This document shows, piece after piece, positions 18,871 to 45,090 of a stretch of DNA of 45,090 nucleotides. The DNA is from Lachnospiraceae bacterium (GTDB lineage: Bacteria; Bacillota; Clostridia; Lachnospirales; Lachnospiraceae). The stretch's first letter is position 1; the number at the start of each line of letters is the position of its first letter. The translations under genes were made by a program, and so were the position numbers. The stretch spans positions 1-45,090 of the forward strand of contig JAFZDQ010000047.1 of assembly GCA_017561085.1 (NCBI GenBank), written 5' to 3'. The notes beneath the pieces are model-generated. The model ran no database searches and was not told the origin of the DNA. It saw only the letters and a list, made by a program, of their open reading frames with translations.

Positions 18871-18921
18871 CAGTTTAAGAAAAAATTTATATTTCTTTAA
18901 TATCGATTTATACTTTTTTAA

Positions 18922-18950
18922 TTGACGCAGAGGACTATAATTCATATAAT
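18922..18950 (+). promoter_or_regulatory. Promoter of the DUF3800-associated RNA
   Basis: TTGACG (18922-18927), an exact 17-bp spacer and TATAAT (18945-18950). Transcription would begin at about 18957, immediately before the first hairpin of the RNA. Confidence 0.8.
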
Positions 18951-18956
18951 AAATAT

Positions 18957-19041: not shown

Positions 19042-19054
19042 GGAGATATTACAT

Positions 19055-24360: not shown

Positions 24361-24553
24361 CGGGTATTATTGTATCATCGGAACGTAAAAGATGCCAGCC
24401 TGAAATGAAACCGGTAAAAGCCGGAAAATGGAATACGTCCTTTGGAGAGAGCTATTTTTGGCAAATGAGAACATTTTAGTGTCCTTACAGGCGGATTTGT
24501 GGTAAAATAGATGTGTTATTTTGGCGCAGGAAGGCGCCGAGGGGAGTACCTGT

Positions 24554-27833: not shown

Positions 27834-27858
27834 TTTTACATGCGTATGCGTCTATAAT
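27830..27858 (+). promoter_or_regulatory. Promoter of the polysaccharide locus
   Basis: TTGATT (27830-27835), a 17-bp spacer and TATAAT (27853-27858). The -35 box overlaps the stop codon of the previous gene, and the first glycosyltransferase starts 32 bp later. Confidence 0.72.
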
Positions 27859-28849: not shown

Positions 28850-28913
28850 GAGAAATAATTCGGATAGAAACAAGAATTATTCAGAAGAATCAAGGTAATT
28901 AAGGATAAAGTTT

Positions 28914-29939: not shown

Positions 29940-29949
29940 AGGTAGCGAA

Positions 29950-30873
29950 ATGGTTTTATTTTCGGTGATTATACCCCATTATAACAGTGTTAAATATTTG
30001 GAAGAACTGATAGAGACGATTCCCGTTTGTGAGGATGTCCAGTTAATCGTGGTAGATGACAAGAGCGATGAGGACACTACAGGCGTGGAGGCTATGGTAA
30101 AGGCGCGGGGCGGACTGTTCCTTCACAATACGACCGATAAGAAGGGCGCCGGCACCTGCCGGAACTTGGGCCTAAAGGAAGCGGTGGGCAAATGGCTTTT
30201 ATTTGCGGATGCGGATGATTATTATACAGACGATGCCTTTGAAAAAGTAAGGGCACATGCAGACAGTGATGCGGATATTATTTATTTTGCACCTACCAGT
30301 ACTTTTAGATATTCAGATACTCATGCAAAGAGACATATTAATTATGTGAAGCTGGTGCAGGAGTATTTAAACAATCCATCTCATGAAAATGAAATTTCCA
30401 TGCGGTACAAGTTCATTATACCGGTTTCCAAGATGGTGAGAAATGAACTTGTTCAGAAGAATGGATTTACTTTTGATGAGGTACCTGCTTCTAACGATGT
30501 GATGTTTTCCTTAAAGTGTGCTTATGCAGCAGGGAAAATAGAAGTGACTGAAGATGTTATTTACCGTATTATCAGCGGAGAAGGAACTCTTACCACTAAG
30601 AAAAGTGAAAAGAATTATTGGGCAAGGGTAAGGATTTTTAAGGAAAGATATCATTTCCTAAAGGAACGCTTGATGAAAGAAGAGTTAAAGGTATTCGGAA
30701 TCAGTACTTTTTCCGGAATTGTGATGATATACCGTGCTTTAAAGCAGGGTTACGGGATGAAGATGGCAGGAGAAATTTGGAAATTCTTCCGTGAAAATCA
30801 GGTGAAACTGATTGATATGGGAAGCGTGAGAACTTCTGTGGGAAGAAAAGTAATGAGAAAGAAAAGCGCATGA
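29950..30873 (+). CDS. Family 2 glycosyltransferase
   Basis: 307 aa from the ATG at 29950, preceded by GAGG; an earlier frame start at 29899 lies within the Stealth gene and has no site. GT2 motifs: FSVIIPHYNSVKYLEELIE, LIVVDDKSDEDT, GAGTCRNLGLKEAVGKWLLFADADDYY. The stop overlaps the flippase start as ATGA, showing translational coupling. Confidence 0.9.
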   Translation: MVLFSVIIPHYNSVKYLEELIETIPVCEDVQLIVVDDKSDEDTTGVEAMVKARGGLFLHNTTDKKGAGTCRNLGLKEAVGKWLLFADADDYYTDDAFEKVRAHADSDADIIYFAPTSTFRYSDTHAKRHINYVKLVQEYLNNPSHENEISMRYKFIIPVSKMVRNELVQKNGFTFDEVPASNDVMFSLKCAYAAGKIEVTEDVIYRIISGEGTLTTKKSEKNYWARVRIFKERYHFLKERLMKEELKVFGISTFSGIVMIYRALKQGYGMKMAGEIWKFFRENQVKLIDMGSVRTSVGRKVMRKKSA

Positions 30874-32300
30874 AAAAGAATGTTGTTTTAGTTAATTTGT
30901 TTTGGAAATTTGCGGAGCGCTGTGGAGCCCAACTGGTACAGTTTATTGTATCTGTTGTTTTGGCGAGAATTTTATTGCCGGAGGTTTATGGAACTGTAAC
31001 GTTAGTGCTTGTGTTTACAAGATTGTTGCAGGTATTCGTGGATAGCGGTTTCGGAAATGCGTTAATTCAAAAGAAAGATGCAGACGAATTGGATTTTTCA
31101 TCTGTATTTTATTTCAATATTGTTGCTTGTAGTTTGATGTATGTCGGAATGTACTTGGTAGCACCGTATATTGCGATGTTTTATGAAGATATGTCTCTTA
31201 TACCTATCATTAGGGTGATGAGTTTATCTATTGTTGTTTCGGGTCTTAAGAATGTTCAGCAGGCGTATGTCTCTCGGACTTTACAGTTTAAACGTTTCTT
31301 TTATGCAACTTTGTGCGGAACCATATCATCCGGTGTTGTGGGTGTTTTTATGGCGCTTCGGGGTGCCGGCGTATGGGCACTTGTCGGACAGCATCTGACC
31401 AGTTTGCTTGTAGATACGGTGGTATTGTGGTGGACTGTGAAATGGAGACCGAAATGGATTTTTTCTTTGGAACGTTTGAAAAGGCTATACTCATATGGTT
31501 GGAAGATTTTTCTCTCATCATTGATAGATGTGGGATATAACGATTTGAGACAGTTGATTATCGGCAAACTTTATTCGACTTCCGACTTGGCATTTTATGA
31601 AAAAGGAAAACAGTTTCCGCATTTAATTATTAACAATGTGAATGCATCTATCAGTAGTGTGTTATTTCCGGTGATGGCGAATGCGCAGGATAACCCGCAA
31701 AAGGTCAAAGAAATGACCAGGAAAGCCATTATTACCAGCAGTTATATTATGTCTCCACTTATGATGGGATTGGCATTTACAGCAGAAGCTGTGGTAAGTT
31801 TGGTATTAACTGACAAGTGGCTGTTTTGTGTTCCTTTTATGCGGATTTTCTGTATAACCTATATGTTTTATCCGATTCATACGGCGAATCTGAATGCAGT
31901 AAAAGCATTAGGACGCAGTGATTTGTTTTTAAAGTTGGAAATCATTAAAAAAGGTGTAGGTCTAATTATTTTACTGATCAGTATGCCTTATGGTGTAATG
32001 GCGATGGCATATAGCTTATTAATTTCCAGTTTCACAAGTCAGATTATCAATTCATGGCCCAACAAGAAATTGCTTGATTATGGATATTTGGAACAGTTAA
32101 AGGATATATTGCCAAGTATATTCCTTGCAGTATTTATGGGGATTTGTGTTTTCGTTATAAGGTGGTTAGCATTATCTGATATTGTTACGTTGGTTCTGCA
32201 AGTTTGTTTCGGAGGGTTGCTTTATATCGGATTATCTGCACTATTTAAAATGGAGATTTTCCGACTGCTTATTGACGGTGTGAAAAATAGAAAGAAGTAG
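30870..32300 (+). CDS. Polysaccharide flippase (Wzx-like, MOP superfamily)
   Basis: 476 aa with 12-14 hydrophobic segments. The N-terminal NLFWKFAERCGAQLVQFIVSVVLARILLPEVYG is typical of the WzxC/PST group of lipid-linked oligosaccharide exporters. It would flip the undecaprenyl-linked repeat unit made by the flanking glycosyltransferases. The coding region is more AT-rich than the first three genes of the locus, and this continues in the next two genes, hinting at a composite origin. Confidence 0.92.
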   Translation: MKKNVVLVNLFWKFAERCGAQLVQFIVSVVLARILLPEVYGTVTLVLVFTRLLQVFVDSGFGNALIQKKDADELDFSSVFYFNIVACSLMYVGMYLVAPYIAMFYEDMSLIPIIRVMSLSIVVSGLKNVQQAYVSRTLQFKRFFYATLCGTISSGVVGVFMALRGAGVWALVGQHLTSLLVDTVVLWWTVKWRPKWIFSLERLKRLYSYGWKIFLSSLIDVGYNDLRQLIIGKLYSTSDLAFYEKGKQFPHLIINNVNASISSVLFPVMANAQDNPQKVKEMTRKAIITSSYIMSPLMMGLAFTAEAVVSLVLTDKWLFCVPFMRIFCITYMFYPIHTANLNAVKALGRSDLFLKLEIIKKGVGLIILLISMPYGVMAMAYSLLISSFTSQIINSWPNKKLLDYGYLEQLKDILPSIFLAVFMGICVFVIRWLALSDIVTLVLQVCFGGLLYIGLSALFKMEIFRLLIDGVKNRKK

Positions 32301-32312
32301 GAGTAAATATAT

Positions 32313-33356
32313 ATGAATATTGTAACAGATGATATAGCCGTATCCGTGATTTGTCTTGCATATAATCATGAAAAATATATCAGACAGACCTTGGAAGGAT
32401 TTGTAAATCAGGTAACGGATTTCCGGTACGAAGTGCTTGTACATGATGATGCTTCGACGGATGGAACTAAAGCCATAATCGAAGAATATGTGCACGAATA
32501 TCCTGATATATTTGTGCCGATATATCAGGAAGAAAATCAATATTCAAAGGGGAATCTGCTTATTCCCAAAACACTGTATAAATTAATTCGGGGAAAATAT
32601 GTGGCCAGTTGTGAAGGGGATGATTACTGGTGTGATAATAATAAATTACAAATGCAGTATGATGTTATGGAAAGTAATCCGGAATGCAGCATTTGTATCC
32701 ATAAAGTAAAGTGCATCAATGAAGACGGAAGTGACAATTTAAAGACATTTCCGAATGAAAACAGTTCTATAGGGGAAGGCTTGATTCCGAAAGCCCGGAT
32801 GGCAGAAAAACTATGGAAAAAAGATTCCTATCCATTCCACACATCCAGTTATTTTGTACGAAGAAGTGTCTATGATAAAAAGAGAGAATTGTTTGAATCA
32901 GAGAGTTGGGTTTACAAAATAAACGGAGATGCCAGTACGATGTGGATGAGCCTTTATCTTGGCGATTTTTATTATATTGATAAAGTAATGTCCAGAAGGA
33001 GATTAGAGGTTCCGGGGAGCTATAACGAACGCTTGAAAAAGTCAAGTGCCGAACTAAAATTCAAAAAATGGAAAGACAGGATAGAAGGAATTTGGTTATA
33101 TGATGAATATAGCCAAAAGGAGTTTCATCCATTGATTCAATATTATATAATAGATTCCGTTGCAAAAAGGATAAAAGTAGATTTAGATGATCCGTTTGTG
33201 ATTTTGCGGCAATGTGGAATTACTTTCAAGGATGTTGTGGGTAAGGTGAAAGTCAGAATATCGGCATTACTTGCATTTGTTTATTTATTTCCGTCATCAA
33301 TCCGTTTTATTCGAAGATTATGGGTAAAATGGGATGCGGCTAAGGGAAAGTTATGA
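32313..33356 (+). CDS. Family 2 glycosyltransferase
   Basis: 347 aa. GT2 motifs: VSVICLAYNHEKYIRQTLEGFVNQ, YEVLVHDDASTDGT, GKYVASCEGDDYWCDNNKLQMQ. The E-G-D-D-Y-W form is typical of capsule glycosyltransferases. A GGAG site precedes the ATG. It starts 12 bp after the flippase stop codon. Confidence 0.9.
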   Translation: MNIVTDDIAVSVICLAYNHEKYIRQTLEGFVNQVTDFRYEVLVHDDASTDGTKAIIEEYVHEYPDIFVPIYQEENQYSKGNLLIPKTLYKLIRGKYVASCEGDDYWCDNNKLQMQYDVMESNPECSICIHKVKCINEDGSDNLKTFPNENSSIGEGLIPKARMAEKLWKKDSYPFHTSSYFVRRSVYDKKRELFESESWVYKINGDASTMWMSLYLGDFYYIDKVMSRRRLEVPGSYNERLKKSSAELKFKKWKDRIEGIWLYDEYSQKEFHPLIQYYIIDSVAKRIKVDLDDPFVILRQCGITFKDVVGKVKVRISALLAFVYLFPSSIRFIRRLWVKWDAAKGKL

Positions 33357-33376
33357 ATTAAGAGAGGTTATTGTCT

Positions 33377-34072
33377 ATGAAAGAAAAACTGATTATTATA
33401 GGAACCAGTTCGTCAGCAAGGCATGTATATGAGTTTGTAAAAGATTATGGCTTATTTGAAATATTGGGCTTTGCGGTTGACAGAGCGTATATAGAACAGG
33501 ATAAGTTCTGTGATTTGCCTGTATATGCAATAGAAGATTTAGATACCATTATCGACAAGAAAGAAGTTAAATTGTTTGTTGCTGTTTTGTGGAACAGACT
33601 GAATGCAGACAGACGTTACCTGTATGAAAGATTGAAAGCAGATGGGTATCAGTTTGCAAATATTATTGCGCCTACGGCCATCGTACGTGGTAAAGTAACA
33701 GAAAATTCCAATTGCTGGCTTCATGATTATGTAATGATACAGCCCAATGCCGTAGTGGGAGAAAATTGTTTGTTGATGGCATTTTCTCTGGTGGGTTCTT
33801 CCGTGCAGTTGGGGGCGCATTGCTTTATGGGAACCAAGAGTACAATTGCCGGAAAAAGTAATGTAGGTGAGCAGACTTTTGTAGGGATTAATTGTACCGT
33901 ATTTGACGGAACCAATGTTGGCGATAAATGTATTTTAGGTGCCTGTACATCTGTAAAAAGGCACGTGGAGAGTTATTCGATTGTAAAGACAAATAGTGAT
34001 AGTACCGCAACTATTCAGATGGAAGAAGATACCATAGAGTCCAAATTATTGTTTAAGAAGAATGTACGCTAA
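33377..34072 (+). CDS. NeuD/PglD-like hexapeptide-repeat acyltransferase
   Basis: 231 aa. The N-terminal Rossmann-like part (KLIIIGTSSSARHVYEFV, residues 1-90) is followed by a left-handed beta-helix of hexapeptide repeats (IIAPTAIVRGKV to the INCTVFDGTNVGDKCILGA region). This layout is shared by NeuD sialic acid O-acetyltransferases and PglD amino-sugar N-acetyltransferases. With the DegT aminotransferase downstream, N-acylation of an amino sugar is the likelier job. Start at the ATG at 33377 (AGAGAGG 9 nt upstream) rather than the TTG at 33371. Confidence 0.85.
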   Translation: MKEKLIIIGTSSSARHVYEFVKDYGLFEILGFAVDRAYIEQDKFCDLPVYAIEDLDTIIDKKEVKLFVAVLWNRLNADRRYLYERLKADGYQFANIIAPTAIVRGKVTENSNCWLHDYVMIQPNAVVGENCLLMAFSLVGSSVQLGAHCFMGTKSTIAGKSNVGEQTFVGINCTVFDGTNVGDKCILGACTSVKRHVESYSIVKTNSDSTATIQMEEDTIESKLLFKKNVR

Positions 34073-34098
34073 GCAGCGTAATAAAAGGAGATTAGCTT

Positions 34099-34572
34099 AT
34101 GCAGGCAAATGTAATGGGAAGATTTTTTGAGGAGTTTGTAGAAGGAGAACAGATTGAACATTGTTTTTCGAAAACCATTTTTGAAAGCGATAATAACCTG
34201 TTTTCATTGATTACCATGAATGCACATCCGGTGCATACCAATGCAGATTATGCGTCCAAGCAGCAACATGGACAGGTACTGGTAGTAGGTACCCTGGTGC
34301 TTAGCCTGGTAGTAGGACTTACCGTGACGGATATCAGCGGAAAGGCAGTTGCAAACTTAGACTATGAAAAGGTAGAGCATCTGGCTCCTGTTTTTGTGGG
34401 AGATACTCTTTACGCGCGTTCGACCGTGCTTTCCTGCAGGGAATCCAAGAAGAAAAATGACAGAGGAATTATCTATATTGAAACGGTAGGATATAACCAG
34501 AACGGTGTTGAAGTGATTCGTTTAAGACGTCATGTACTTGTGAAAAAATCAAATTTTGTTGAGGAGAAATAG
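34099..34572 (+). CDS. MaoC-family hydratase/dehydratase
   Basis: 157 aa with a single hot-dog fold. The hydratase-2 region reads LITMNAHPVHTNADYASKQQHGQVLVVGTLVLSL; Asn-His and the PxHxN/D-x-x-YA layout resemble mesaconyl-CoA hydratase/beta-methylmalyl-CoA dehydratase members of the family. It would add or remove water on an enoyl-CoA type thioester. It directly precedes a CitE-like lyase, the same pairing known in the ethylmalonyl-CoA pathway (Mch with Mcl). An AAAAGGAG site precedes the ATG. The substrate is inferred. Confidence 0.87.
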   Translation: MQANVMGRFFEEFVEGEQIEHCFSKTIFESDNNLFSLITMNAHPVHTNADYASKQQHGQVLVVGTLVLSLVVGLTVTDISGKAVANLDYEKVEHLAPVFVGDTLYARSTVLSCRESKKKNDRGIIYIETVGYNQNGVEVIRLRRHVLVKKSNFVEEK

Positions 34573-34573
34573 A

Positions 34574-35455
34574 ATGAAGTATTTACTTAGAAGTATGCTT
34601 TTCGTACCCGCATACAGCGAGAAGTTTATTGATAAAGCCATTGATTGTGATGCAGATGCCATTATTTTTGATATGGAGGATTCTGTGCCGCCTACCAAAC
34701 GTGCCGAAGCAAGACAGATATTATCCGGCTATCTGGAAAAGAAAACCTTTTCCGGAAGACAGCTGTTTATCCGCGTAAATGAATTGGAAACCGAAGATTT
34801 GGAAGAAGATTTGAAAGTGATTCAGGATGGACAAATTCTGGGAATCGTGGCACCCAAAATCAGAAATACGGAAGATATTGATGCTTTTGTAAAGAAATTG
34901 GAAGAATGTGAAGCCCGCTGTGGTTTGGAAGAGGGAACTCTTAAGATTTTACCCCTGATTGAGACTGCAGATGCTGTGTTAAACGTACAGAGTATCGCGG
35001 GAAGTAATGAAAGAGTAATTGCACTTTTGTTTGGCGGTGAAGATTTCCTTGACAGCATTTGGGGCAGACATGATTATCCACCCAAAGCATTTGATGTACC
35101 CAGGGCAATGGTAGCGATGGCGGCCAGAATGCATGGAATTCTGCCCATCGATACGCCTTACCTGGATTTAAAGAATGAAGAAGGCTTTAAGCAGGAAGAA
35201 AGAGAATCCTGTTCTCTTGGTTATGCAGGTATTTTGCTTGTTAATCCCAGACAGATTCCCTGGGCCCATGAGTGCTTTACACCTTCCGAGGAGGAAATTG
35301 CGGAAGCAAGAGCCATTATGGAAGCAGTGGAGAATGCCAAAACTACCGGCGGAAGCATTGCAACCTTAAACGGCAAGATGATTGGACCTCCTATGAGGAA
35401 AAGAGCACAAAAGGTAGTGCAGATTGCAGACTTAATCAAAGCAAAGGAAAAATAA
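34574..35455 (+). CDS. CitE-like (HpcH/HpaI family) acyl-CoA lyase, copy 1
   Basis: 293 aa. TIM-barrel family with RSMLFVPAYSEKFIDKA, the metal-binding FDMEDSVPPTKRAEAR, ILPLIETADAVLNV, and FGGEDFLDSIWG. The C-terminal lid (SIATLNGKMIGPPMRKRAQ) is present as in malyl- and citramalyl-CoA lyases. The usual I-H-P near the active-site rim is V-N-P here. No citF or citD is nearby, so it is not a citrate lyase subunit. It starts at the ATG at 34574 with GAGGAG upstream. It may condense glyoxylate or pyruvate with an acyl-CoA. Confidence 0.87.
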   Translation: MKYLLRSMLFVPAYSEKFIDKAIDCDADAIIFDMEDSVPPTKRAEARQILSGYLEKKTFSGRQLFIRVNELETEDLEEDLKVIQDGQILGIVAPKIRNTEDIDAFVKKLEECEARCGLEEGTLKILPLIETADAVLNVQSIAGSNERVIALLFGGEDFLDSIWGRHDYPPKAFDVPRAMVAMAARMHGILPIDTPYLDLKNEEGFKQEERESCSLGYAGILLVNPRQIPWAHECFTPSEEEIAEARAIMEAVENAKTTGGSIATLNGKMIGPPMRKRAQKVVQIADLIKAKEK

Positions 35456-35456
35456 G

Positions 35457-36281
35457 ATGGGGCAGTCAGATGAAACTTGGCTTTTTGTACCGGCCAAAGG
35501 GAAGTTTTTGGATAAATTTGAAGAAATTGAATCGGAAATCATTATCTTGGATTTAGAGGATTCTTTGGCACCGGAGCAAAAGGAAGAAGGGCTTGAACTG
35601 GCGCAAAAAGTCATAGAACGCTTCGGAAAAGAACGGACTATTTATGTGCGGGTAAATTCCGGAGAGCGGTTGATATTCGAGTTGCAGAACTTGAGGAATT
35701 ATGAGTTTGACGGGTACATGATTCCGAAGTTTGAAAATCCTGATTTTTTGGAGGAATACGAGGAACTTCTGACAGGTAAAAAGGTGATTGCGCTGGTGGA
35801 GAGCATCAAAGGAATCTTTTCGCTGGAGAAAATTGCAAGTCATCCGCTTGTTAATATTCTGGCGTTCGGCGGAGAGGATTTTTGTAAGGAAATATCCATG
35901 GAAGCAGGCGAGGAAGCAACCATTTATGCCCGGAATCAATTGGTGATGTATGCTGCATTTAACGGGAAAACTGCGCTGGATTCCATCAGTTTGGAAATCC
36001 GTGATATGGAGATTTTTGCCGGACAATACCAAAAGTCCAAACGGATGGGCTTTAACGGAAAGCTGTTAATTCATCCGAATCAGGCCCGGGCGGTGCGGAA
36101 GTACCGGGAAAAGTTTGATAAACAGAGGTTGCAAAGAATTATTGATATCTATAATGATAGTAAAGAGGCAATCGTTCAAATAGACGGGCAGGTATATGAA
36201 CCCCCGCATATTGAAAAAATAAAGAAGTATTTACAGAATTTTCAAGGAGAATTGTTGAATGGTGAAAAGTGGGCAATTTAG
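35457..36281 (+). CDS. CitE-like acyl-CoA lyase, copy 2 (divergent paralogue)
   Basis: 274 aa, one base after copy 1. It has ETWLFVPAKGKFLDKF, ILDLEDSLAPEQKEEG, MIPKFENP, ALVESIKGIFSL, AFGGEDFCKEI and the intact GKLLIHPNQARAV. It lacks the first-residue RS of copy 1. Both copies keep the Glu-Asp metal pair. Two unequal lyases side by side suggest a heteromer or two successive steps on related thioesters. Its 3' end overlaps the carboxyltransferase gene by 23 bp. Confidence 0.85.
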   Translation: MGQSDETWLFVPAKGKFLDKFEEIESEIIILDLEDSLAPEQKEEGLELAQKVIERFGKERTIYVRVNSGERLIFELQNLRNYEFDGYMIPKFENPDFLEEYEELLTGKKVIALVESIKGIFSLEKIASHPLVNILAFGGEDFCKEISMEAGEEATIYARNQLVMYAAFNGKTALDSISLEIRDMEIFAGQYQKSKRMGFNGKLLIHPNQARAVRKYREKFDKQRLQRIIDIYNDSKEAIVQIDGQVYEPPHIEKIKKYLQNFQGELLNGEKWAI

Positions 36282-37782
36282 CGAATTGATAGAAAAGAAA
36301 AATGCTGTACACAGTATCGGCAGGGAAGAAAAGCAACACGCTGCCGGAAAACTTACGGCATGGGAGCGAATCAATTTACTGATTGATGAAGGTACCTTTG
36401 TGGAAACGGACATGCTGTTAGAGCACAGATGTACCTATTTTGGCATGGAAAATAAGAAAAAAGAAGGTGACGGCGTTATTACCGGTTACGGAAAAGTGGA
36501 GGGCCGTACCGTTTGTGTTTACGCCCAGGATTTTACCGTATTTGGCGGTTCTATCAGTGAGATGAATGCCAGAAAAATTGCCAGTATTCAGAAGAAAGCC
36601 TTAGAAATGATGGTACCGGTCGTAGCTTTGTTTGATTCCGGCGGAGCCCGTGTACAGGAAGGAATTCAGGGCTTGTCCGGGCATGGACATATCTTTTATA
36701 ATAACGTGAAAGCATCCGGGAAGGTGCCGCAGATTTCCGCGATTATGGGAACCTGTGCCGGCGGTGCATCTTATTCGCCTGCACTTACCGACTTTATTGT
36801 TATGGTGGACAAAACCAGTAATATGTTTATTACAGGTCCGAAGGTAGTAAAGGCTGCCATCGGACAGGAGGTTACTATGGATGAACTTGGCGGAACACAG
36901 GTGCATGCCAAGATCAGCGGTATTGCTGACCATGTGGCTGCGAATGATGAAGACTGTATCCGCTTTGTAAAGACATTGCTGAGATATTTACCTGACAATT
37001 ACAGGGAAATGCCGCAAGTGTTGAATGAATATAAGTTTACTTTAAATAAAAAGCCCGATATCAATGCCATTATTCCGGAATCGGCAAGACATGCTTATGA
37101 TATGCATAAAGTGATTGAGTGTATTATTGATGACGGAAGCGGAACGGAAATCAAAGGGGAACATGCTACTAATATTATTACCATGTTTGCCAGAGTCGGC
37201 GGCTATCCTGTAGGTATTGTAGCAAACCAATCTGCGGAAAAGGCAGGCTGTATTGATATTGATGCGGCTGATAAGGCAGCCAGATTTATCCGTATCTGTG
37301 ACAGCTTTAACATTCCCCTTTTAAATCTTGTGGATGTATCAGGGTTCTTCCCCGGCAAAGAGCAGGAGCAGAAGGGAATTATCCGTCACGGTGCCAAGAT
37401 GCTGTTTGCGTATAGCGAGGCAGAAGTTTTGAAGATCACTACCATTATCCGCAAGGCATATGGCGGTTCTTATCTTGCTATGTGCAGTAAGGAGATGGGG
37501 GCTGATATGGTATTTGCATGGCCTAAGGCGGAAATGGCAGTTATGAGTGCCAAAGCGGCAATTGATGTTCTTTACAGAAAGGCAGATGAAGAAGAAAAAG
37601 CAAATCGTCTGCAGGAATATGAAGAGCAGTTTTTGAATCCTTATGAAGCGGCGCATATGGGCTATGTGGATGAAGTGATTGAGCCGGCTATGACCAGAGA
37701 TTACATTTTAAAAGTGCTTCGCAATAATTGGGAAAGTATGGCTCGTAAAGAGAAATATTTCCATCAGAATATACCGTTATAG
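36259..37782 (+). CDS. Acyl-CoA carboxylase carboxyltransferase (beta) subunit
   Basis: 507 aa, full length for propionyl/acetyl-CoA carboxylase beta or the methylmalonyl-CoA decarboxylase alpha subunit. Crotonase-fold motifs: LTAWERINLLIDEGTF, VVALFDSGGARVQEG, ISAIMGTCAGGASYSPALTDF, and the C-terminal GGSYLAMCSKEMGADMVFAWP. No biotin carboxylase or biotin carrier gene is in the window, so the partners are encoded elsewhere. It would supply or remove a carboxyl group on an acyl-CoA used by the neighbouring lyases. AAGGAG precedes the ATG. Confidence 0.93.
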   Translation: MVKSGQFSELIEKKNAVHSIGREEKQHAAGKLTAWERINLLIDEGTFVETDMLLEHRCTYFGMENKKKEGDGVITGYGKVEGRTVCVYAQDFTVFGGSISEMNARKIASIQKKALEMMVPVVALFDSGGARVQEGIQGLSGHGHIFYNNVKASGKVPQISAIMGTCAGGASYSPALTDFIVMVDKTSNMFITGPKVVKAAIGQEVTMDELGGTQVHAKISGIADHVAANDEDCIRFVKTLLRYLPDNYREMPQVLNEYKFTLNKKPDINAIIPESARHAYDMHKVIECIIDDGSGTEIKGEHATNIITMFARVGGYPVGIVANQSAEKAGCIDIDAADKAARFIRICDSFNIPLLNLVDVSGFFPGKEQEQKGIIRHGAKMLFAYSEAEVLKITTIIRKAYGGSYLAMCSKEMGADMVFAWPKAEMAVMSAKAAIDVLYRKADEEEKANRLQEYEEQFLNPYEAAHMGYVDEVIEPAMTRDYILKVLRNNWESMARKEKYFHQNIPL

Positions 37783-37805
37783 GGCATGTAGAAAGGAATT
37801 GAGTA

Positions 37806-38999
37806 ATGAAAAAGATATTGATGCTTGGAGGTGCAATGTCACAGATTCCGGCAATCAAAAAGGCCAAGGAACTGGGATATTATGTCATTACGTGTGATTA
37901 TTTGCCTAATAATCCGGGGCATGCATTTTCTGATGAATATGTAAATATCAGTACTGTGGATAAAGAAGCCGTTTTATCCTTTGCAAAGGATAAAAAGATT
38001 GACGGAATTGTTGCATATGCTTCAGATCCTGCGGCAGCAACTGCGGCATACGTAAGCGAAAAATTAGGTCTTCCGGGAAATCCTTATGATGTAGTGAAGA
38101 TGTTTAGCGAAAAGGACTTGTTTCGGGAATTCCAAAAAAACAATGGTTTTCCGTATCCGCAATTTTATCGTTTGTCAAATATAGAAGAACTGAAAGAAGT
38201 TTGGGATGAAATAGAATTTCCGTGTGTAGTGAAACCTGTAGACTCCTCGGGTAGTAAAGGTGTAGTAAAAATTGACCGGAAGGAAGATTTGGAAAAAGCA
38301 GTTGAAGAAGCATTGCACTTTTCAAGGGGCGGACGTGTAATTATCGAGCAATTTATAGAGACACCTTATAATCATTTGCATGCGGATGGTGTGGTGACGG
38401 ATGGAAAATTGGACTTTGTAGTATTGGGGGATCAGAGATTTCGTAATATGGTTCCGATAGGTACGGCAATTCCTTCCATGGTGGATGAAGAAGTGGTTAG
38501 GAAAGCAACAAAAGAGGTGGCCAGATTTATAGAGAATAGCGGTCTGAAGAATGGTGCGGTTAATATTGAAGTCAGGGTGGCGGCAGATGGAACCGTATAT
38601 ATTATTGAGATTGGTCCCAGAGCCGGAGGAAATTATATTCCGCAGTTAATGTATCATGCTACCGGACAGGATGAAGTTGCGGCAGTATTAAAGCAGGCAA
38701 TGGGGGAAGAATATCCGATTCTGACACCTGAAGAGTTGACTTGTACCTTACAGTATAATATTGGCAGCCTTAAAAATGGAAAATTTAAGGAAGTGTTTGT
38801 GGATGAATATCTTCGCGATAAATTAGTGGAGTTGTACATTTACAAAAAGAAGGGTGATCCTGTTGTGGATTATCAGAACAGTAATGGTGTTGTAGGTGTG
38901 GCAATCATGAAATTTGACAGCTTGGAAGAGCGGGAAAGGACAATTCCTGAGATGCATAACTATATCAAAGTTATAACGGAAGAGGAAGTCTTAGGCTAA
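37806..38999 (+). CDS. ATP-grasp carboxylate-amine ligase
   Basis: 397 aa. An N-terminal preATP-grasp domain (KKILMLGGAMSQIPAIKKAKELGYYVITCD) precedes the ATP-grasp fold: FPCVVKPVDSSGSKGV and the metal-binding IIEIGPRAGGNYIPQL. A C-terminal domain of ~90 residues follows. Such ligases couple a carboxylate to an amine through an acyl phosphate. Between the CoA genes and a sugar aminotransferase, it could join an unusual acid to an amino sugar. The substrates are unknown. Confidence 0.9.
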   Translation: MKKILMLGGAMSQIPAIKKAKELGYYVITCDYLPNNPGHAFSDEYVNISTVDKEAVLSFAKDKKIDGIVAYASDPAAATAAYVSEKLGLPGNPYDVVKMFSEKDLFREFQKNNGFPYPQFYRLSNIEELKEVWDEIEFPCVVKPVDSSGSKGVVKIDRKEDLEKAVEEALHFSRGGRVIIEQFIETPYNHLHADGVVTDGKLDFVVLGDQRFRNMVPIGTAIPSMVDEEVVRKATKEVARFIENSGLKNGAVNIEVRVAADGTVYIIEIGPRAGGNYIPQLMYHATGQDEVAAVLKQAMGEEYPILTPEELTCTLQYNIGSLKNGKFKEVFVDEYLRDKLVELYIYKKKGDPVVDYQNSNGVVGVAIMKFDSLEERERTIPEMHNYIKVITEEEVLG

Positions 39000-39068
39000 G
39001 AGGTCAGATTTTGTTGTGCAGAGCAATAGAAAAAATAGTACAGAAAAAAATTAGTAAAAGAGATAAGT

Positions 39069-40172
39069 ATGGATAAAATTTTGGTTACACGGTCATCGAT
39101 GCCGGCATACGAGGAATATATTTCTGAAATTAAAGAGTTATGGGATTCTCATTGGCTGACTAATATGGGAGTAAAGCATAAGCAATTGCAAAAAGAGCTG
39201 AAAGAATATTTGGGCGTGGAAGGCATTGATTTGCTGACCAACGGACATATGGCATTAGAACTTTCACTTCAGGCATTACAGATGGAGGGAGAGGTTATTA
39301 CTACGCCTTTTACCTTTGCATCCACTACGCATGCAATTGTGCGTAATGGGTTAAAACCGGTTTTTTGTGATATTGACCCGGTAGATTTTACAATCGATGT
39401 GAGCAAAATAGAGGGATTGATTACAGAAAAAACTTGTGCGATTGTGCCGGTCCATGTTTACGGAAATATTTGTAATGTGGAAGAGATAGAGCGGATTGCA
39501 AAGAAACACAATCTGAAGGTGATATACGATGCGGCCCATGCTTTCGGCATTGAATATAAAGGGAAAGGAATCGGCTCTTTCGGAGATGTTTCCTGTTTTA
39601 GTTTCCATGCTACGAAGGTGTTTAATACCATTGAAGGAGGCGCGGTTTGTTTTAAGGATGAAGCTTTTGGACGTGCATTATATGGTCTTAAGAATTTCGG
39701 AATCCGCGGAACTGAAATTGTGGATAGTGTAGGGGCTAATGCAAAGATGAATGAGTTTTGCGCAGCTATGGGAATTTGCAATCTGCGACATATTGAAGAA
39801 GAAATAGCCAAGCGTGAAGTAGTATACAAGCGTTACGTTGAACGGTTACAAGGTGTGGCAGGTTTGCAGATGAATCCGGTGCAGAAGGATGTAAAACCGA
39901 ATTATTCCTACTTCCCTATTGTAATTGATGAGAAAATTTTTGGCATAGACAGAAATGGGTTGTTTGATAGGTTGGCGGAATCAGGTATTGGTGCGAGAAA
40001 GTACTTTTATCCGCTGGCAAATGCATTTGATTGTTATAAGGCGGAATATCATGCATCAGAAACGCCGATTGCACTTGGGATTAGTGAATGCGTACTTACT
40101 TTGCCGATGTATGCAGATTTGTCACTGGAACAGGTAGATATGATTTGTGATTGTATAACAAAGAAATACTAG
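39069..40172 (+). CDS. DegT/DnrJ/EryC1/StrS-family sugar aminotransferase
   Basis: 367 aa, a PLP fold type I enzyme. Landmarks: LTNGHMALELSLQAL, TTPFTFASTTHAI, DAAHAFGIEYKGKGIGSFGD, and the PLP lysine in SFHATKVFNTIEGGA. It would aminate a keto-sugar nucleotide, with the NeuD/PglD-like protein at 33377 as a possible next step. No dehydratase partner is in the window. The ATG follows AAAAGAGA. Confidence 0.92.
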   Translation: MDKILVTRSSMPAYEEYISEIKELWDSHWLTNMGVKHKQLQKELKEYLGVEGIDLLTNGHMALELSLQALQMEGEVITTPFTFASTTHAIVRNGLKPVFCDIDPVDFTIDVSKIEGLITEKTCAIVPVHVYGNICNVEEIERIAKKHNLKVIYDAAHAFGIEYKGKGIGSFGDVSCFSFHATKVFNTIEGGAVCFKDEAFGRALYGLKNFGIRGTEIVDSVGANAKMNEFCAAMGICNLRHIEEEIAKREVVYKRYVERLQGVAGLQMNPVQKDVKPNYSYFPIVIDEKIFGIDRNGLFDRLAESGIGARKYFYPLANAFDCYKAEYHASETPIALGISECVLTLPMYADLSLEQVDMICDCITKKY

Positions 40173-40190
40173 AGAAGGATATGTAATACC

Positions 40191-41273
40191 ATGGAATCAA
40201 AAGTCAGAAATTCGAATATAGAATTGTTCAGAATTTTATCAATGATTTGTATTATAGCACATCATTATGTGGTGAATTCCGGACTGACCAAAATGATGAA
40301 TGAAAGTCCGCTTTCTGTAAACAGTATTTTTTTGACGTTTTTTGGCGGTGGCGGCAAAATTGGTATTAACTGTTTTGTGCTGATTACCGGCTACTATATG
40401 TGTACTTCGGATATTTCACTGAAAAAGTTTTTGAAGCTGTTTTTAGAGGTGGAATTCTATAAGATTATTATTTATTCTATTTTTGTAGTGACCGGGTATA
40501 TAGATTTTACGGTAACAGGTTGTATCAAGTATATTTTCCCGATTACGGGAATCCGGACCGGATTTACTTTTTCCTATTTGGCGTTTTATTTATTGATTCC
40601 TTTTGTGAACAAATTGATTCATAATATAACCAAAAAGGAACACATATCTTTATTGGGAATATTGTTATTTGTTTACAGTGTGATGCCGTCACTCAAAATG
40701 GTGACCTTCAGTTTGGATTATGTAATATGGTTTATAATTATTTATTTGGTTGCATCCTATATCAGATTGTATCCTGCCCCCATTTATGAAAATAAAGGTT
40801 TTTGGACGCTGGCAATGGGCGGTACGGTTATGCTTTCGTATTTAAGTGAATTGGTGGGCTTGTGGATTGGTGTCACGAAAGATAATCCGTCCTTGAGATA
40901 CTTTTTTGTGGCGGATTCAAATAAAGTTCTGGCACTTATAGTAGCAGTGAGTGCATTCATGTTCTTTAAGAATTTGAATTTGAAATATTGTAAGTATATT
41001 AATGTGGCGGCAGCTTCTTGCTTTGGTATATTAATGATCCACGCAAATAGCGATGCTATGAGACAATGGCTTTGGGGCGATCTTTTAAGAAATACAGAAC
41101 AGTTTGACAGTAAGTATCTGGTATTACATGCGATTGGCGCAGTGATAGGTATATTCGGTATTTGTATGTTAATTGATATAATAAGAGTGAAATTATTGGA
41201 AAAACCGTTTTTTAGGTTGTATGACAGATATATAGTAAAGGAGCAGGTAAATGCAAAAGAGGAGAATCGTTAA
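40191..41273 (+). CDS. Acyltransferase-3 family membrane protein
   Basis: 360 aa with about ten hydrophobic segments. The start NIELFRILSMICIIAHHYVVN holds the conserved R and His dyad of the OafA/WecH family. Such proteins O-acetylate or succinylate exported sugars. The final 23 bp overlap the SGNH gene, so the two are coupled. In some family members an SGNH domain is fused to the C-terminus; here it is a separate adjacent protein. Confidence 0.9.
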   Translation: MESKVRNSNIELFRILSMICIIAHHYVVNSGLTKMMNESPLSVNSIFLTFFGGGGKIGINCFVLITGYYMCTSDISLKKFLKLFLEVEFYKIIIYSIFVVTGYIDFTVTGCIKYIFPITGIRTGFTFSYLAFYLLIPFVNKLIHNITKKEHISLLGILLFVYSVMPSLKMVTFSLDYVIWFIIIYLVASYIRLYPAPIYENKGFWTLAMGGTVMLSYLSELVGLWIGVTKDNPSLRYFFVADSNKVLALIVAVSAFMFFKNLNLKYCKYINVAAASCFGILMIHANSDAMRQWLWGDLLRNTEQFDSKYLVLHAIGAVIGIFGICMLIDIIRVKLLEKPFFRLYDRYIVKEQVNAKEENR

Positions 41274-42300
41274 AATTATATTGTTTCTTTTGATTCTTTT
41301 TGTCCTGTTTATGAATGTTGAAAAAGTTTTTAAAGAATCAGTAGGTGATCAAGCAAAATATCCTCAGATTGTTGAATTTTTTGACGAAAGAGAAGAGAGT
41401 CTGGATGCGGTGTTTATCGGAAGCAGTAGTACTTTTGCTTTCTGGCAGGCCCCCATTGCATGGGAAAAATACGGTATTACGGTCCGCTGTATGGCTAGTA
41501 ATACGCAGCCGCTTGTGGCAGCCAGATATTTAATTGAGGATGGGCTTAAGACACAGCCGGATGCAGTCTATGTGGTTGCAATCAATACCATGCATGAAAC
41601 TGTAAAGAGTCCTGCCATTCATTATCTGGTGGATAAGTATCCGTTCTCTATGACAAAGGCGAAGATGATTTTTGCGTGTGCAGACTATGGAGAGATTCCT
41701 TGGAGTGAGAGATTGGAATTTTTCTTTCCCATTATCCGCTATCATAACAGGTGGAGTGAATTGGGAGAACAAAATTTTAATAATGCTCCGGTGGGCTTAA
41801 AGGGAGGAAGTACGTACAAGAATTTCCTGGAAGTAGCAACGGATGTAACGGAAGAGTATACAGTACTTGAAGAAAAGGCTGCTAAGGAAGAACTCCCTTA
41901 TGACACGCTGGTAGAACTTTTGGAGTTCTGCAAGGAAAATGAGGTTAAGGTACTTTTTGTGACCAATCCCCAAGTGTTGAAATCTGAGAAACGGCTCAAA
42001 AAGTATAATGCAGCTAATGAATTGATTGAATCCTATGGTTTTGACACTTTAAATACAATACCTATGATTCCGGAAATCGGTATGGATTTGGCTACAGATT
42101 ATTACAACGGCAGTCACACTAACGTACACGGTTCTTTGAAATATACACTGTGGCTTGGTAATTATCTGAAAGACAAGTATGGCTTTACTGATAAGCGTTC
42201 TGATGGGGATTATGCGGATTGGGAACAGGAGAGTTCCAAATATATGAAAATTATCAAACCATATCTTTCGGAGGAAGAATATAAAAGGATTACGGAATAA
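41251..42300 (+). CDS. Membrane-anchored SGNH/DltD-like protein
   Basis: 349 aa. One N-terminal membrane anchor (about 7-24) is followed by an extracytoplasmic domain with the SGNH nucleophile block AVFIGSSSTFAFW, VVAINTMHE, and the late Asp/His-type block YYNGSHTNVHGSLKY. It resembles DltD and the AlgJ/AlgX group, which finish acyl transfer to surface polymers together with an MBOAT. AAAGGAG precedes the ATG. It ends the upstream operon at a terminator; the MBOAT follows. Confidence 0.82.
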   Translation: MQKRRIVKIILFLLILFVLFMNVEKVFKESVGDQAKYPQIVEFFDEREESLDAVFIGSSSTFAFWQAPIAWEKYGITVRCMASNTQPLVAARYLIEDGLKTQPDAVYVVAINTMHETVKSPAIHYLVDKYPFSMTKAKMIFACADYGEIPWSERLEFFFPIIRYHNRWSELGEQNFNNAPVGLKGGSTYKNFLEVATDVTEEYTVLEEKAAKEELPYDTLVELLEFCKENEVKVLFVTNPQVLKSEKRLKKYNAANELIESYGFDTLNTIPMIPEIGMDLATDYYNGSHTNVHGSLKYTLWLGNYLKDKYGFTDKRSDGDYADWEQESSKYMKIIKPYLSEEEYKRITE

Positions 42301-42313
42301 ATTTAGTAAAAAT

Positions 42314-42360
42314 AGGCAGGTAGTGCAGTGTGACGTAACATTGACACTACTTGCCTTTTT
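42314..42360 (+). terminator. Terminator after the SGNH gene
   Basis: The arms AGGCAGGTAGTG (42314-42325) and CACTACTTGCCT (42345-42356) pair over 12 bp with one G-U, followed by a T5 run. The loop and 3' arm contain a -35 box. Confidence 0.82.
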
Positions 42361-42369
42361 GTATATAAT
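42341..42369 (+). promoter_or_regulatory. Consensus promoter nested in the terminator, drives MBOAT-ACP-ligase
   Basis: A perfect TTGACA (42341-42346), an exact 17-bp spacer and a perfect TATAAT (42364-42369). The MBOAT ATG is at 42416, behind GAGGA. Confidence 0.88.
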
Positions 42370-42415
42370 TAGTTATTGAGTAAAATTATGCTTATATATC
42401 AGAAGAGGATTAGAA

Positions 42416-43921
42416 ATGAGTATTACTTCTATTTGGTTTATTATATTCATATTACTGGCGATGGTGGTTTATTACATCGTACCGAAGCGGTTTCAGTATC
42501 TGGTTTTACTGGCTGCAAGTATCGCCTTTTATTTATCCTACGGAATCGGATATATGCCTTATATTCTGGCGACGACGGTGATTACTTATGCAGGGGCCAG
42601 AATTTTCGGAAATCCGGAGTATAAGCACCGTAAGGCAGTGATGGTAGTAACCTTACTTTTGAGCCTGGGGCTTTTGTGCTATACCAAGTACACCAACTTC
42701 CTGTTAGGCACGCTGGATAAGCTTGCCGGAGGCGGCAAAATTGAGATGATTGATTTGGTGGTTCCTCTTGGTGTTTCTTTCTATACTTTTATGTCCGTGG
42801 GATATATTCTGGACGTATATTGGAAGAAATATGAGGCTGAGAAGAATTTCCTCAGGTATGCAACCTTTATTATGTACTTCCCCCATATCGTACAGGGACC
42901 CATTGACAGGTATAATAAACTTGCGCCCCAGTTCTTTGGTGGGAAGAAATTTGATTTTCAGAGAATGGTTTCCGGCGGGGAACTGATTCTTTGGGGCTTT
43001 TTCTTAAAACTTGTCATTGCCAACAGACTTGGCATGTTTGTAGATACCGTATTTGGGGATGTGACGGCCCATGGCGGTGCAGTATGGTTAGTTACTTTGG
43101 CACTTTATTCCATTCAGACCTATGCAGACTTTTTGGGATGTATGGAAATTGCCAGAGGTACCTCTTTATTATTCGGTATTGATTTAGAGAGAAACTTTGA
43201 CCATCCTTATTTTGCAAAGACCATTCCGGAATTCTGGAGAAGATGGCATATGACCATGGGTGCATGGTTTAAGGACTATTTGTTCCTGCCCGTATCCAAT
43301 TCTTCCTTTGTGAAGAAGACCAGTAAGAAGCTGGGTAAGAAGTTCGGTGCCAAGGCACGTAAGAACTTTGTAAGCTGCTTCTCGGTAGCAGTGGTATGGC
43401 TTTCTACCGGTATCTGGCACGGAGCCGGATGGAAATTTATTGCATGGGGATGTTATCATGGATGTCTGACCATTGGTGGCACCCTGTTTGGAGACAAGAT
43501 TGACAAGCTTACCGCGTGGCTTAAGATTAATACCAAAACCAAATCCTGGGAGTTATTCCAGATGACCAGAACCCTCCTGCTTTGTTGTTTCGGACGAATC
43601 TTTTTCAGGGCGAATTCCATATCAGAGGCATTTCTGATTATGAAGCAGATGGTAACCAGACTGGAAATTTGGAAATTGGTAGACGGCAGTTTGTATGAAC
43701 TTGGTCTTGACAGAGCAAACTTTATGGTAGCCATTTTAAGTATCGTTGTACTTTGGTGTGTCAGCATGCTTCAGGAGCGCGGCTCTGTACGTGAGATGAT
43801 AGCAAAGCAGAATCTGGTGTTCAGATATCTGATTTTATATATTGCTATATTTGCAGTTTTGATTTTTGGAATTTACGGCCCCGGTTATGTGGCAAGCTCA
43901 TTTATTTATGAGCAGTTCTAA
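42416..43921 (+). CDS. MBOAT O-acyltransferase (DltB/AlgI family)
   Basis: 501 aa with about 11 hydrophobic segments. The MBOAT signature is seen in YFPHIVQGPIDRYNKL, FWRRWHMTMGAWFKDYLF and the catalytic His in STGIWHGAGWKFIAWGCYHG. DltB and AlgI move an acyl group across the membrane onto a polymer or acceptor protein. The donor here is most likely the acyl-ACP formed by the two genes that follow. It is the first gene of its operon. Confidence 0.94.
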   Translation: MSITSIWFIIFILLAMVVYYIVPKRFQYLVLLAASIAFYLSYGIGYMPYILATTVITYAGARIFGNPEYKHRKAVMVVTLLLSLGLLCYTKYTNFLLGTLDKLAGGGKIEMIDLVVPLGVSFYTFMSVGYILDVYWKKYEAEKNFLRYATFIMYFPHIVQGPIDRYNKLAPQFFGGKKFDFQRMVSGGELILWGFFLKLVIANRLGMFVDTVFGDVTAHGGAVWLVTLALYSIQTYADFLGCMEIARGTSLLFGIDLERNFDHPYFAKTIPEFWRRWHMTMGAWFKDYLFLPVSNSSFVKKTSKKLGKKFGAKARKNFVSCFSVAVVWLSTGIWHGAGWKFIAWGCYHGCLTIGGTLFGDKIDKLTAWLKINTKTKSWELFQMTRTLLLCCFGRIFFRANSISEAFLIMKQMVTRLEIWKLVDGSLYELGLDRANFMVAILSIVVLWCVSMLQERGSVREMIAKQNLVFRYLILYIAIFAVLIFGIYGPGYVASSFIYEQF

Positions 43922-43961
43922 AGAAATTTGAAAGAAATTCTGATTAACGGAGGAAATGAAA

Positions 43962-44183
43962 ATGGAAAGATTATTGGAAGTATTAAGCGAATGTTGTCCC
44001 GATGTGGATTTTGACGTGGAAAAGGAACTGATTACCGGTAAGGTAATCGACTCTGTAGATTTGGTTGCAGTAGTTTCCGATATCGAAGATGAATTCGGTA
44101 TCTCCATTCCCATGGAAGAGTTAGTTCCCGAAAACTTTGATTCCATCGAAGCAATTTGGGAAATGGTTCAGAGATTATCATAA
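43962..44183 (+). CDS. Acyl carrier protein (DltC-like)
   Basis: 73 aa from the ATG at 43962, with GGAGG 8 nt upstream; the ATG at 43956 lies too close to that site. The phosphopantetheine Ser is in GKVIDSVDLVAVVSDIEDEFGI, followed by IPMEELVPENFDSIEAIWEMV. The acidic four-helix ACP layout is complete. It carries the activated acyl group between the ligase downstream and the MBOAT upstream. Confidence 0.93.
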   Translation: MERLLEVLSECCPDVDFDVEKELITGKVIDSVDLVAVVSDIEDEFGISIPMEELVPENFDSIEAIWEMVQRLS

Positions 44184-44200
44184 TACAGCGAGGATAAATT

Positions 44201-45090
44201 ATGTTTTGTTCAATTATGGATGCGGTAAGATACCATGCGCTTCATACCCCGGAGAAACTTTGTGTGGCTGACGGAATTGCGGATTACAGTTATCTTACCA
44301 TGTATGAAAAAGCGGGTGCGGTAGCAACCTGTCTTCAAAATGCAGGAGTTAAGCAGGGGGACAGAGTGACAGTGGAATGTACCCAGAATGCTTATTACCT
44401 GATTTGCGGGCTGGCTTGTCAGCTTCTCGGTGCTATTTTTGTGCCGGTAGAGAATAAGGTGGCCATTGAGCGTTTGAAGGAAATTACAGCAAGTGTGGAA
44501 GCAGCGCTTCATATTGGACAGACAGAATATCAGACAGAAAATCAGTTCTTAGATATCAATGTTTTGTTTGAGAATTTGCCGGCAGATGCAGATATGGATG
44601 AATTTTCTTCCTATCGTGATGAAAATGCGATTGCAGAAATTCTTTATACCACAGGTACCACAGGAAAGCCCAAGGGAATCATGATTTCTAACGGCAACAA
44701 TGTGGCAGTAGCGGAGAATATTCTTTACGGAACCGAGATGAAGAAGGACAGCGTGGAATTAATTCCCCTTCCCCTTAGTCATTCCCATGGTCTTAGAAGC
44801 TATTATGCCCATTTGATTAACGGAAGCAGTGTGGTACTGGCTGACGGTGTATTAAAAGTGAAAGAAATCTTTGAACTGATGGACAAGTATCAGGTGACAG
44901 CGCTGGATTTATCTCCCAGTGCGGCCAAGATCTTATTGAAGCTTTCCAAAGGTAATTTCAGTAATTACAGCGATAAGATTGATTATGTCCAAATCGGAAC
45001 CGCTATGCTTGGTGAAGATGTGAAGGAAGATATGTGCCGTATTTTCAGTAAGAGCCGTTTGTACAACTGTTACGGTTCCACCGAATCGGG
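44201..45090 (+). CDS. AMP-forming acyl/aminoacyl-ACP ligase, 3' end outside window
   Basis: The frame stays open from the ATG at 44201 to the right edge (296 codons so far). The adenylation-domain motifs are LYTTGTTGKPKG (A3, ATP binding) and YGSTESG (A5) at the very end; the C-terminal domain is outside. It lacks any N-terminal targeting signal. By order and type it corresponds to DltA: it activates a carboxylic acid with ATP and loads it on the ACP. The substrate pocket cannot be called from this part. It starts 17 bp after the ACP stop codon. Confidence 0.93.
   Translation, partial: MFCSIMDAVRYHALHTPEKLCVADGIADYSYLTMYEKAGAVATCLQNAGVKQGDRVTVECTQNAYYLICGLACQLLGAIFVPVENKVAIERLKEITASVEAALHIGQTEYQTENQFLDINVLFENLPADADMDEFSSYRDENAIAEILYTTGTTGKPKGIMISNGNNVAVAENILYGTEMKKDSVELIPLPLSHSHGLRSYYAHLINGSSVVLADGVLKVKEIFELMDKYQVTALDLSPSAAKILLKLSKGNFSNYSDKIDYVQIGTAMLGEDVKEDMCRIFSKSRLYNCYGSTES

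Follow-up and report, generated by a model that had tools for sequence, protein, structure and literature searches.

Why should genes for central acyl-coenzyme A (CoA) chemistry stand in one row with genes for a surface polysaccharide? The question is raised by positions 34,099 to 45,090 of a contig from a Lachnospiraceae bacterium (assembly GCA_017561085.1, contig JAFZDQ010000047.1). The window analysed here is the whole stretch of 45,090 nucleotides (contig bases 1-45090), from a genome of 2.96 Mb in 131 contigs with a completeness of 95.9%. The window features described below from 27830 onward lie on its plus strand. An initial annotation, made from the sequence alone, had read the region as a Dlt-like acyl exporter joined to its own CoA module. 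The best overall explanation is in our view a different one, to which we give a probability of about 0.42: two adjacent transcription units would decorate one surface polysaccharide. Within this locus, the part most worth pursuing is a trio of genes encoding two unusual CitE-like proteins (CitE1 and CitE2) and a carboxyltransferase (CT).

Two probable adjacent units in the window

Profile matches (Pfam and NCBIfam) bear out the gene kinds that the initial annotation listed for 34099-45090, the SGNH label excepted. The region starts with a MaoC hydratase (34099..34572), followed by CitE1 (34574..35455), CitE2 (35457..36281) and CT (36259..37782). Then come an ATP-grasp ligase resembling L-amino-acid ligases (37806..38999; Pfam, PDB), a DegT sugar aminotransferase (39069..40172), an acyltransferase-3 membrane protein (40191..41273; PF01757, 39.7 bits) and a probable SGNH-type partner protein (41251..42300). 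An MBOAT (42416..43921), an acyl carrier protein (ACP, 43962..44183; DSVDL site, PF00550, 26 bits) and an AMP-forming acid ligase (44201..45090; PF00501, 157 bits) complete the region; the ligase is truncated after 296 residues, where the window ends. CitE1 starts at the ATG at 34574, the list of open reading frames (ORFs) having placed a TTG start at 34556. The description of the CoA genes as one overlapping run was nearly right: CitE2 and CT overlap by 23 bp, while the MaoC-CitE1 and CitE1-CitE2 junctions are gaps of 1 bp each.

The run extends upstream of MaoC. The gene of a PglD/PerB/VioB-like N-acyltransferase (33377..34072) ends 26 bp before MaoC, and five polysaccharide genes identified with Pfam (27890..33356) precede it in the same run: GT2 (27890), Stealth (28914), GT2 (29899), a Wzx-type flippase (30870) and GT2 (32313). 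From the first GT2 gene to the N-acyltransferase gene, gaps do not exceed 64 bp and some genes overlap. A weak promoter-like site, TTGATT-17-TATAAT (27830..27858; 10/12 consensus matches), lies 5' of the run. This polysaccharide operon supports the surface-polysaccharide setting that had been proposed for the locus.

Between the SGNH-like and MBOAT genes, 115 bp hold a stem-loop with a T run and a promoter. The predicted intrinsic terminator (42314..42360) gives a folding energy of -29.2 kcal/mol for 42301-42365 (z -6.7), and none of 200 shuffles was equally good. The promoter (42341..42369), TTGACA-17-TATAAT, overlaps the 3' arm of the terminator and matches the sigma-70 consensus at 12 of 12 positions. 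Such a perfect site is expected 0.04 times per whole window and was present in 4 of 100 shuffles. Promoter-like sites of all kinds are about as numerous in the window as in its shuffles (57 vs. 50.1, standard deviation 6.4), which weakens the promoter calls. A transcriptional break at 42314-42369 appears probable, and MBOAT, ACP and ligase would probably, not certainly, form a transcription unit of their own. With a terminator and a perfect-consensus promoter between the SGNH-like and MBOAT genes, the locus is probably not one machine.

The CitE1-CitE2-CT trio

The two CitE-like proteins match PF03328 with 140.7 (CitE1) and 80.6 bits (CitE2). Their active sites were aligned with 59 distinct homologue ORFs from 77 loci (6 without an ORF; identical ones collapsed). 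The barrel Arg and the metal-binding Glu/Asp are kept in all 9 trio sequences and in all 59 homologues. At the lid position, 54 of the homologues have Asp, 5 have Glu and none has Gly; this residue is Gly in all four CitE1 sequences (G271 in the window) and Glu in all five CitE2 sequences (E248). According to part of the work of Zarzycki and Kerfeld (PMC3832036), the lid Asp is conserved throughout the superfamily, with Glu in its place in the malyl-CoA thioesterase group, and the lid of one CitE-like subunit closes the active site of the neighbouring subunit. CitE2 therefore carries the lid Glu typical of the thioesterase group, and CitE1 lacks the lid Asp typical of the superfamily. Its residues speak against naming CitE1 a malyl-CoA lyase or a citrate lyase.

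A quick tree built from 40 sequences places the CitE1 proteins in one clade and the CitE2 proteins in another, both with SH-aLRT 100; the stems measure about 1.6 (CitE1) and 1.9 (CitE2) changes per column. CitE2 stands apart from four Glu-bearing homologues. Six plasmid regions were fetched as references, from which one ORF only entered the tree, and Mcl2 of R. sphaeroides is absent from it. The identification of CitE2 as a plain Mcl2 is rejected for now by this tree position, Mcl2 itself being outside the tree.

Since the lid reaches the neighbouring subunit, a mixed CitE1/CitE2 oligomer is conceivable, and it would be the simplest way for CitE1 to gain a lid acid. In a stronger form of this proposal, which we consider unlikely as a whole, the oligomer would be obligate. 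The Glu lid of CitE2 would complete the CitE1 barrels, and the Gly lid of CitE1 would leave the other sites open; CT, working without biotin carboxylase, would take CO2 from oxaloacetate via a shared carrier, and the set would build an acyl group of the surface polymer. If true, this would be a CitE-type enzyme of carbon-carbon chemistry whose active site is divided between two gene products. The pair would also bear on the puzzle, set out in a section of PMC3832036, of the role of the lid Asp and of what separates a lyase from a thioesterase.

The third member, CT, is of the PccB/MmdA type (PF01039, 574 bits; TIGR01117, 657 of 998.8 bits), with Leu in the motif GGSYLAM. It scores 556 bits with the beta subunit of propionyl-CoA carboxylase in the PDB vs. 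254 bits with the best methylcrotonyl-CoA carboxylase chain, which disfavours a leucine-type CT. No biotin carboxylase (PF02785) was found in five genomes (G000, G790-G793; 2-7 candidates scored in each; controls 13/14), a result to be taken with caution because the genomes are drafts (95.9% completeness for that of the window). The absence makes ATP-driven carboxylation unlikely, and an ATP-driven carboxylase was rejected; exchange of CO2 is likely. Each of the five genomes has one strong match for a biotin carrier (BCCP), with a weak second match in G000 (below cut-off) and in G793 (slightly above cut-off). In the genome of the window, this carrier is encoded on another contig (C131) in a cluster with the order CT'-OADgamma-BCCP-OADbeta-5S, which brings together BCCP, OAD beta and 5S as in a Na+-pumping acyl-CoA decarboxylase/transcarboxylase. 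A region of G790 (L127) has the same order and similar proteins, as far as sequence starts tell. Decarboxylation, or CO2 exchange with oxaloacetate via the shared biotin carrier, would be the likely function, if CT can use the carrier.

We searched for the trio with one CitE2 scan of a species-genome collection; such a pattern scan catches close relatives only, and more loci may exist. Four other loci were found (L031 to L034), three in records of Lachnospiraceae and one in Clostridium sp. CitE1, CitE2 and CT are adjacent in L031, L033 and L034 (CT being cut by the contig end in L034), and the L032 contig begins inside the trio and shows CitE2-CT. Identity with the window proteins is 62-64% for CitE1 (n = 3), 54-58% for CitE2 (n = 4) and 73-79% for CT (n = 4, one partial). 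What is conserved across the four relatives is CitE1-CitE2-CT; MaoC does not belong to it. No MBOAT was found in the stretches fetched around these trios. The number of independent cases may be as low as two or three: L031 and L033 share their neighbourhood from glf onward, and the genomes of L032 and L034, which may be kin, both carry an additional CT of 48% identity. Further CitE2 orthologues were found neither in 299 genomes of the family (query P0003) nor in 397 of the family and 398 of the phylum (query A1), samples that overlap; the best outside score with A1 was 133.6 bits vs. 490.9 for its own sequence. A plasmid search with CitE2 returned 238 records, all with <60% identity (26-30% in the best 30 of the 238). 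A different CT (48% identity) adjoins glf at L126:7670-9292 in G793, at the place where L031 and L033 have the trio, and G791 carries a CT resembling it (L086).

The trio might instead be a metabolic module in its own right, serving carbon, propionate, glyoxylate or itaconate metabolism, and lie in a polysaccharide locus by chance without feeding the glycan; we regard this explanation as rather unlikely while still a serious one. The surroundings of the relatives' trios point both ways. The trio follows glmS in L034, its last two genes stand before dnaE in L032, and it precedes glf in L031 and L033, which favours such a module. In L033, however, genes for a LicD-methyltransferase protein, a cytidylyltransferase and glycosyltransferase-type proteins lie directly upstream, and in the window the trio is unbroken inside the polysaccharide operon, with MaoC 26 bp from the N-acyltransferase gene. 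The LicD and methyltransferase domains of L033 form one protein (L033:5473-8310), encoded two genes before the trio.

The gene set itself also speaks for a metabolic module. The end part of the ethylmalonyl-CoA pathway and of the 3-hydroxypropionate bicycle is a set of Mch, Mcl1, Mcl2 and propionyl-CoA carboxylase. The same four protein kinds are present here: a MaoC-type hydratase, two CitE-like proteins (one with a lid Glu) and a PccB-type CT. In contrast to this pathway, no biotin carboxylase was found here, CitE1 has lost its lid acid, the setting is one of cell-surface genes and the relatives have no MaoC match. Single enzymes of this end part are treated in portions of PMC3832036 and PMC5592240. 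Itaconate and leucine degradation by RipB and RipC offers another likeness, MaoC scoring 146.5 bits with RipB and CitE1 147.6 bits with RipC. These scores are far below the cut-offs (340 and 375), CitE1 scores better with citE, there are two CitE-like genes here, and no CoA-transferase occurs among the profiled genes of the run. Rv2498c of Mycobacterium, which belongs with these degradation sets, acts on HMG-, citramalyl- and malyl-CoA, according to an excerpt of PMC6689899. Among the titles and abstract openings listed from the literature searched, none names a system with the present set, subscription journals lying largely outside.

A probable route to an N-acylated amino sugar

The N-acyltransferase encoded before MaoC is a hexapeptide protein (PF00132; PF17836 slightly below cut-off) whose best PDB matches are perosamine N-acetyltransferase and PglD, with VioB lower. 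Among the matches of DegT are DesI and perosamine synthase (Pfam, NCBIfam, PDB). The locus thus has a DegT protein and a PglD-fold N-acyltransferase in one operon, as VioA/VioB and PerA/PerB cassettes do. Anthrose and N-acyl-viosamine cassettes combine the roles of hydratase, aminotransferase and N-acyltransferase. The likeness is that one operon holds a hydratase together with a DesI-like aminotransferase and a VioB/PglD-like acyltransferase; the differences are that the hydratase is here of MaoC type and that a CitE pair, CT and ATP-grasp are added. The product of DegT and the PglD/VioB-like enzyme is probably a 4-amino-6-deoxy sugar in N-acylated form, for which MaoC, CitE1, CitE2 and CT would probably supply the acyl-CoA. 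The tight spacing from the PglD-like gene through CT supports a shared operon and this reading. As reported in an extract of PMC3210612, amide-linked malic acid and Qui4N with 3-hydroxy-acyl groups occur in O-polysaccharides, which gives a malyl-type amide a chemical precedent. ATP-grasp and DegT belong to a separate cassette: among the 13 best ATP-grasp loci elsewhere, 8 have a DegT of 51-69% identity nearby.

The nearest solved structure to MaoC is a beta-methylmalyl-CoA dehydratase. The motif of the window MaoC, MNAHPVH, has Asn where 23 of 24 MaoC ORFs from genomes of the same family have Asp and one has Glu (29 loci, 6 of them without an ORF). The Asn motif also occurs on plasmids of Methylobacterium and Salipiger, in MaoC genes adjoining CoA ester lyases, and in domain 2 of the structures 8hgn and 4e3e, domain 1 of each being without it. 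We infer that Asn before the catalytic His may mark the mesaconyl/itaconyl-CoA hydratase type. MaoC stays below the NCBIfam cut-offs for RipB (340) and for 2-methylfumaryl-CoA hydratase (58.6 bits vs. 560). MaoC proteins encoded near ATP-grasp and DegT or PglD in other loci (L204-L206) were rejected as orthologues (29-33% identity, Asp motif). In L205 and L206, from two other genomes, such an Asp-type MaoC stands beside a PglD-like gene and near ATP-grasp, an independent pairing of hydratase and N-acyltransferase.

From the gene content, sequence signals, motifs and trio conservation described above, we infer the substrates, the heteromer, the direction of the CoA chemistry and the order of assembly as follows. 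Unit A (27890-42300) would be a Wzx-type polysaccharide operon. In it, a 4-keto-6-deoxy nucleotide sugar would receive its amine from DegT, and the PglD/VioB-like enzyme would transfer an acyl group from CoA onto the sugar amine. MaoC, CitE1, CitE2 and CT would make this acyl-CoA from a short acyl-CoA and a 2-oxo acid, the product being most likely a 3-hydroxy C4-C5 dicarboxylic acyl group (malyl, methylmalyl or citramalyl type). CitE1 and CitE2 would probably be paired, perhaps within a mixed oligomer where CitE2 contributes the Glu lid that completes the CitE1 barrel. CT would probably exchange CO2 by way of the biotin carrier encoded in the Na+ decarboxylase cluster, setting the short acyl-CoA, and ATP-grasp would add or alter an amide on the DegT product. 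Unit B (from 42341 on) would be a separate O-acylation system, in which an acid is loaded on ACP by the ligase, taken over by the C-terminal Tyr of MBOAT and finally passed to an SGNH protein.

Several results weigh against this two-unit explanation. A simple terminator scan of the window did not list the stem-loop at 42314-42360. MaoC has no match at E 0.001 in the genomes of the four relatives, and the better-scoring half of 8hgn (domain 1) is the one without the Asn/His motif. The relatives' trio is not beside DegT or PglD in the stretches seen, and its link with N-acylation has thus been seen once. The best NCBIfam model of CitE1 is plain citE, at 189.6 bits and below the cut-off of 443.4. 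Without its lid acid CitE1 might be inactive, and clades on stems as long as those of CitE1 and CitE2 could have other substrates.

The MBOAT unit and the meaning of the locus

The ligase was searched for in 250 genomes of its own family. Sixteen match at E 1e-30 or better, own genome included, and regions were fetched for 12 of the 15 others. Eight of these 12 loci have an MBOAT, and seven of the eight an ACP (tblastn). No CitE, CT or MaoC gene was found in any of the eight, within the 13-19 kb fetched for each; a CT-like ORF (22% identity) occurs in L235, one of the four ligase loci that lack MBOAT. The full set from MaoC, the two CitE genes and CT to MBOAT, ACP and ligase was rejected as one conserved system on the basis of these loci and of the relatives' trio, in the stretches fetched.

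The window MBOAT has the WHG motif and ends in FIYEQF, which fits the FxYxxF shuttle. Nine MBOAT proteins are encoded in the eight related loci; eight of them end in FxYxxF and the ninth in FVYAAY. According to excerpts of PMC12148441, FxYxxF is an acyl-shuttle motif, which PatA has fused and for which DltB relies on DltX, and MBOAT-SGNH systems other than Dlt have no carrier protein and use acyl-CoA. Unit B resembles Dlt D-alanylation in its MBOAT, carrier protein and AMP ligase (and its putative SGNH-like protein), but differs in the fused motif and in a ligase that, as far as it is present, is nearer other families. With the PatAB/AlgI-type acyltransferases it shares the fused C-terminal FxYxxF, WHG and, putatively, an SGNH-like partner, whereas the adjoining ACP and ligase set it apart. 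A fused shuttle with ACP and ligase is, on these sequence features, a mixed type, in a combination beyond what the excerpts of PMC12148441 describe. MBOAT reaches 157.8 bits with the DltB model (cut-off 375; DltX itself was outside the search), and the ligase, to which cut-offs do not apply because it is cut, reaches 92.9 bits with DltA vs. 138.6 for another family. Against the PDB, the incomplete ligase scores 46.8 with DltA vs. 75.9 and 60.8 with others.

The SGNH label rests on two motifs, GSSS and HTN, and on resemblance (23-38% identity) to six MBOAT-adjacent proteins in relatives. The protein has no significant Pfam, NCBIfam or PDB match, and the relatives' SGNH-like proteins gave no SGNH profile match in the four scanned. 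An SGNH-like protein beside the MBOAT of L228 (L228:3985-5967; 20% identity to that of the window) ends in a ricin-type lectin domain.

Four of the eight related MBOAT loci have a CitMHS/Na_sulph_symp-type carrier built into the MBOAT-(ACP)-AMP-ligase operon, at L225:8283-9686, L226:7658-9076, L228:7836-9245 and L230:9639-11057 (the last by similarity only). The carriers of the other three are 59-73% identical to that of L225. None was found in the window, which ends inside the ligase. Members of the CitMHS/Na-sulphate-symporter family import di- and tricarboxylates, a hint that the acyl donor of the MBOAT unit may be an acid of this kind.

These carriers, the adjacency of the CoA genes and the MBOAT set in the window, and the lid Glu of CitE2, a mark of the thioesterase group in the part of PMC3832036 on this residue, favour the reading of the initial annotation. 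The CoA genes would make an acid, freed by CitE2, that ligase, ACP and MBOAT export as an O-ester. We find this distinctly unlikely. The MBOAT unit has its own promoter after a strong terminator, its shuttle is fused as in PatA and unlike DltB, a CoA ester would need no AMP ligase, and in the tree CitE2 falls outside the Glu-bearing homologues. The annotation had expected the CoA genes to co-occur with the MBOAT-ACP-ligase set, and had taken their absence from most relatives keeping that set as decisive against it; none was found in the stretches fetched for the eight. Of its other proposals, the hydroxy- or dicarboxylic acyl group keeps its support as CoA-ester chemistry, from the Asn motif of MaoC and the likeness to beta-methylmalyl-CoA dehydratase, and loses its link to MBOAT export, while attachment as an amide is plausible through DegT and the PglD-like enzyme. 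That CitE1 is a dead paralogue, CitE2 working alone as a malyl-CoA thioesterase-like protein with no mixed enzyme, would fit a Gly seen in none of the 59 homologues at a residue conserved through the superfamily (PMC3832036, in part), but is improbable, as CitE1 is kept in the three of three relatives whose contig covers the gene, at an identity above that of CitE2, with an intact metal site and Arg, unlike a decaying gene.

Elsewhere in the window, integrase, FtsK/HerA-type and Rep_OBD genes (11418-14567) make up a small integrative element, lying upstream of the polysaccharide genes, of which the DUF3990, HTH and DUF3800 proteins at 17532-19753 are possibly cargo. A homocysteine S-methyltransferase fused to a methylenetetrahydrofolate-reductase-like domain is encoded at 24521-26365.

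If the two-unit explanation is true, central-carbon enzymes (a lyase pair, a hydratase and a transcarboxylase) would have been recruited for surface sugars in Lachnospiraceae-type bacteria, and the locus would give a genetic handle on the origin of malyl- or citramalyl-type substituents. The MBOAT-ACP-ligase set with its fused shuttle, accompanied by a built-in carrier in four of the eight related loci, suggests a broader kind of polymer acylation, perhaps uncharacterised and intermediate between Dlt and Pat.

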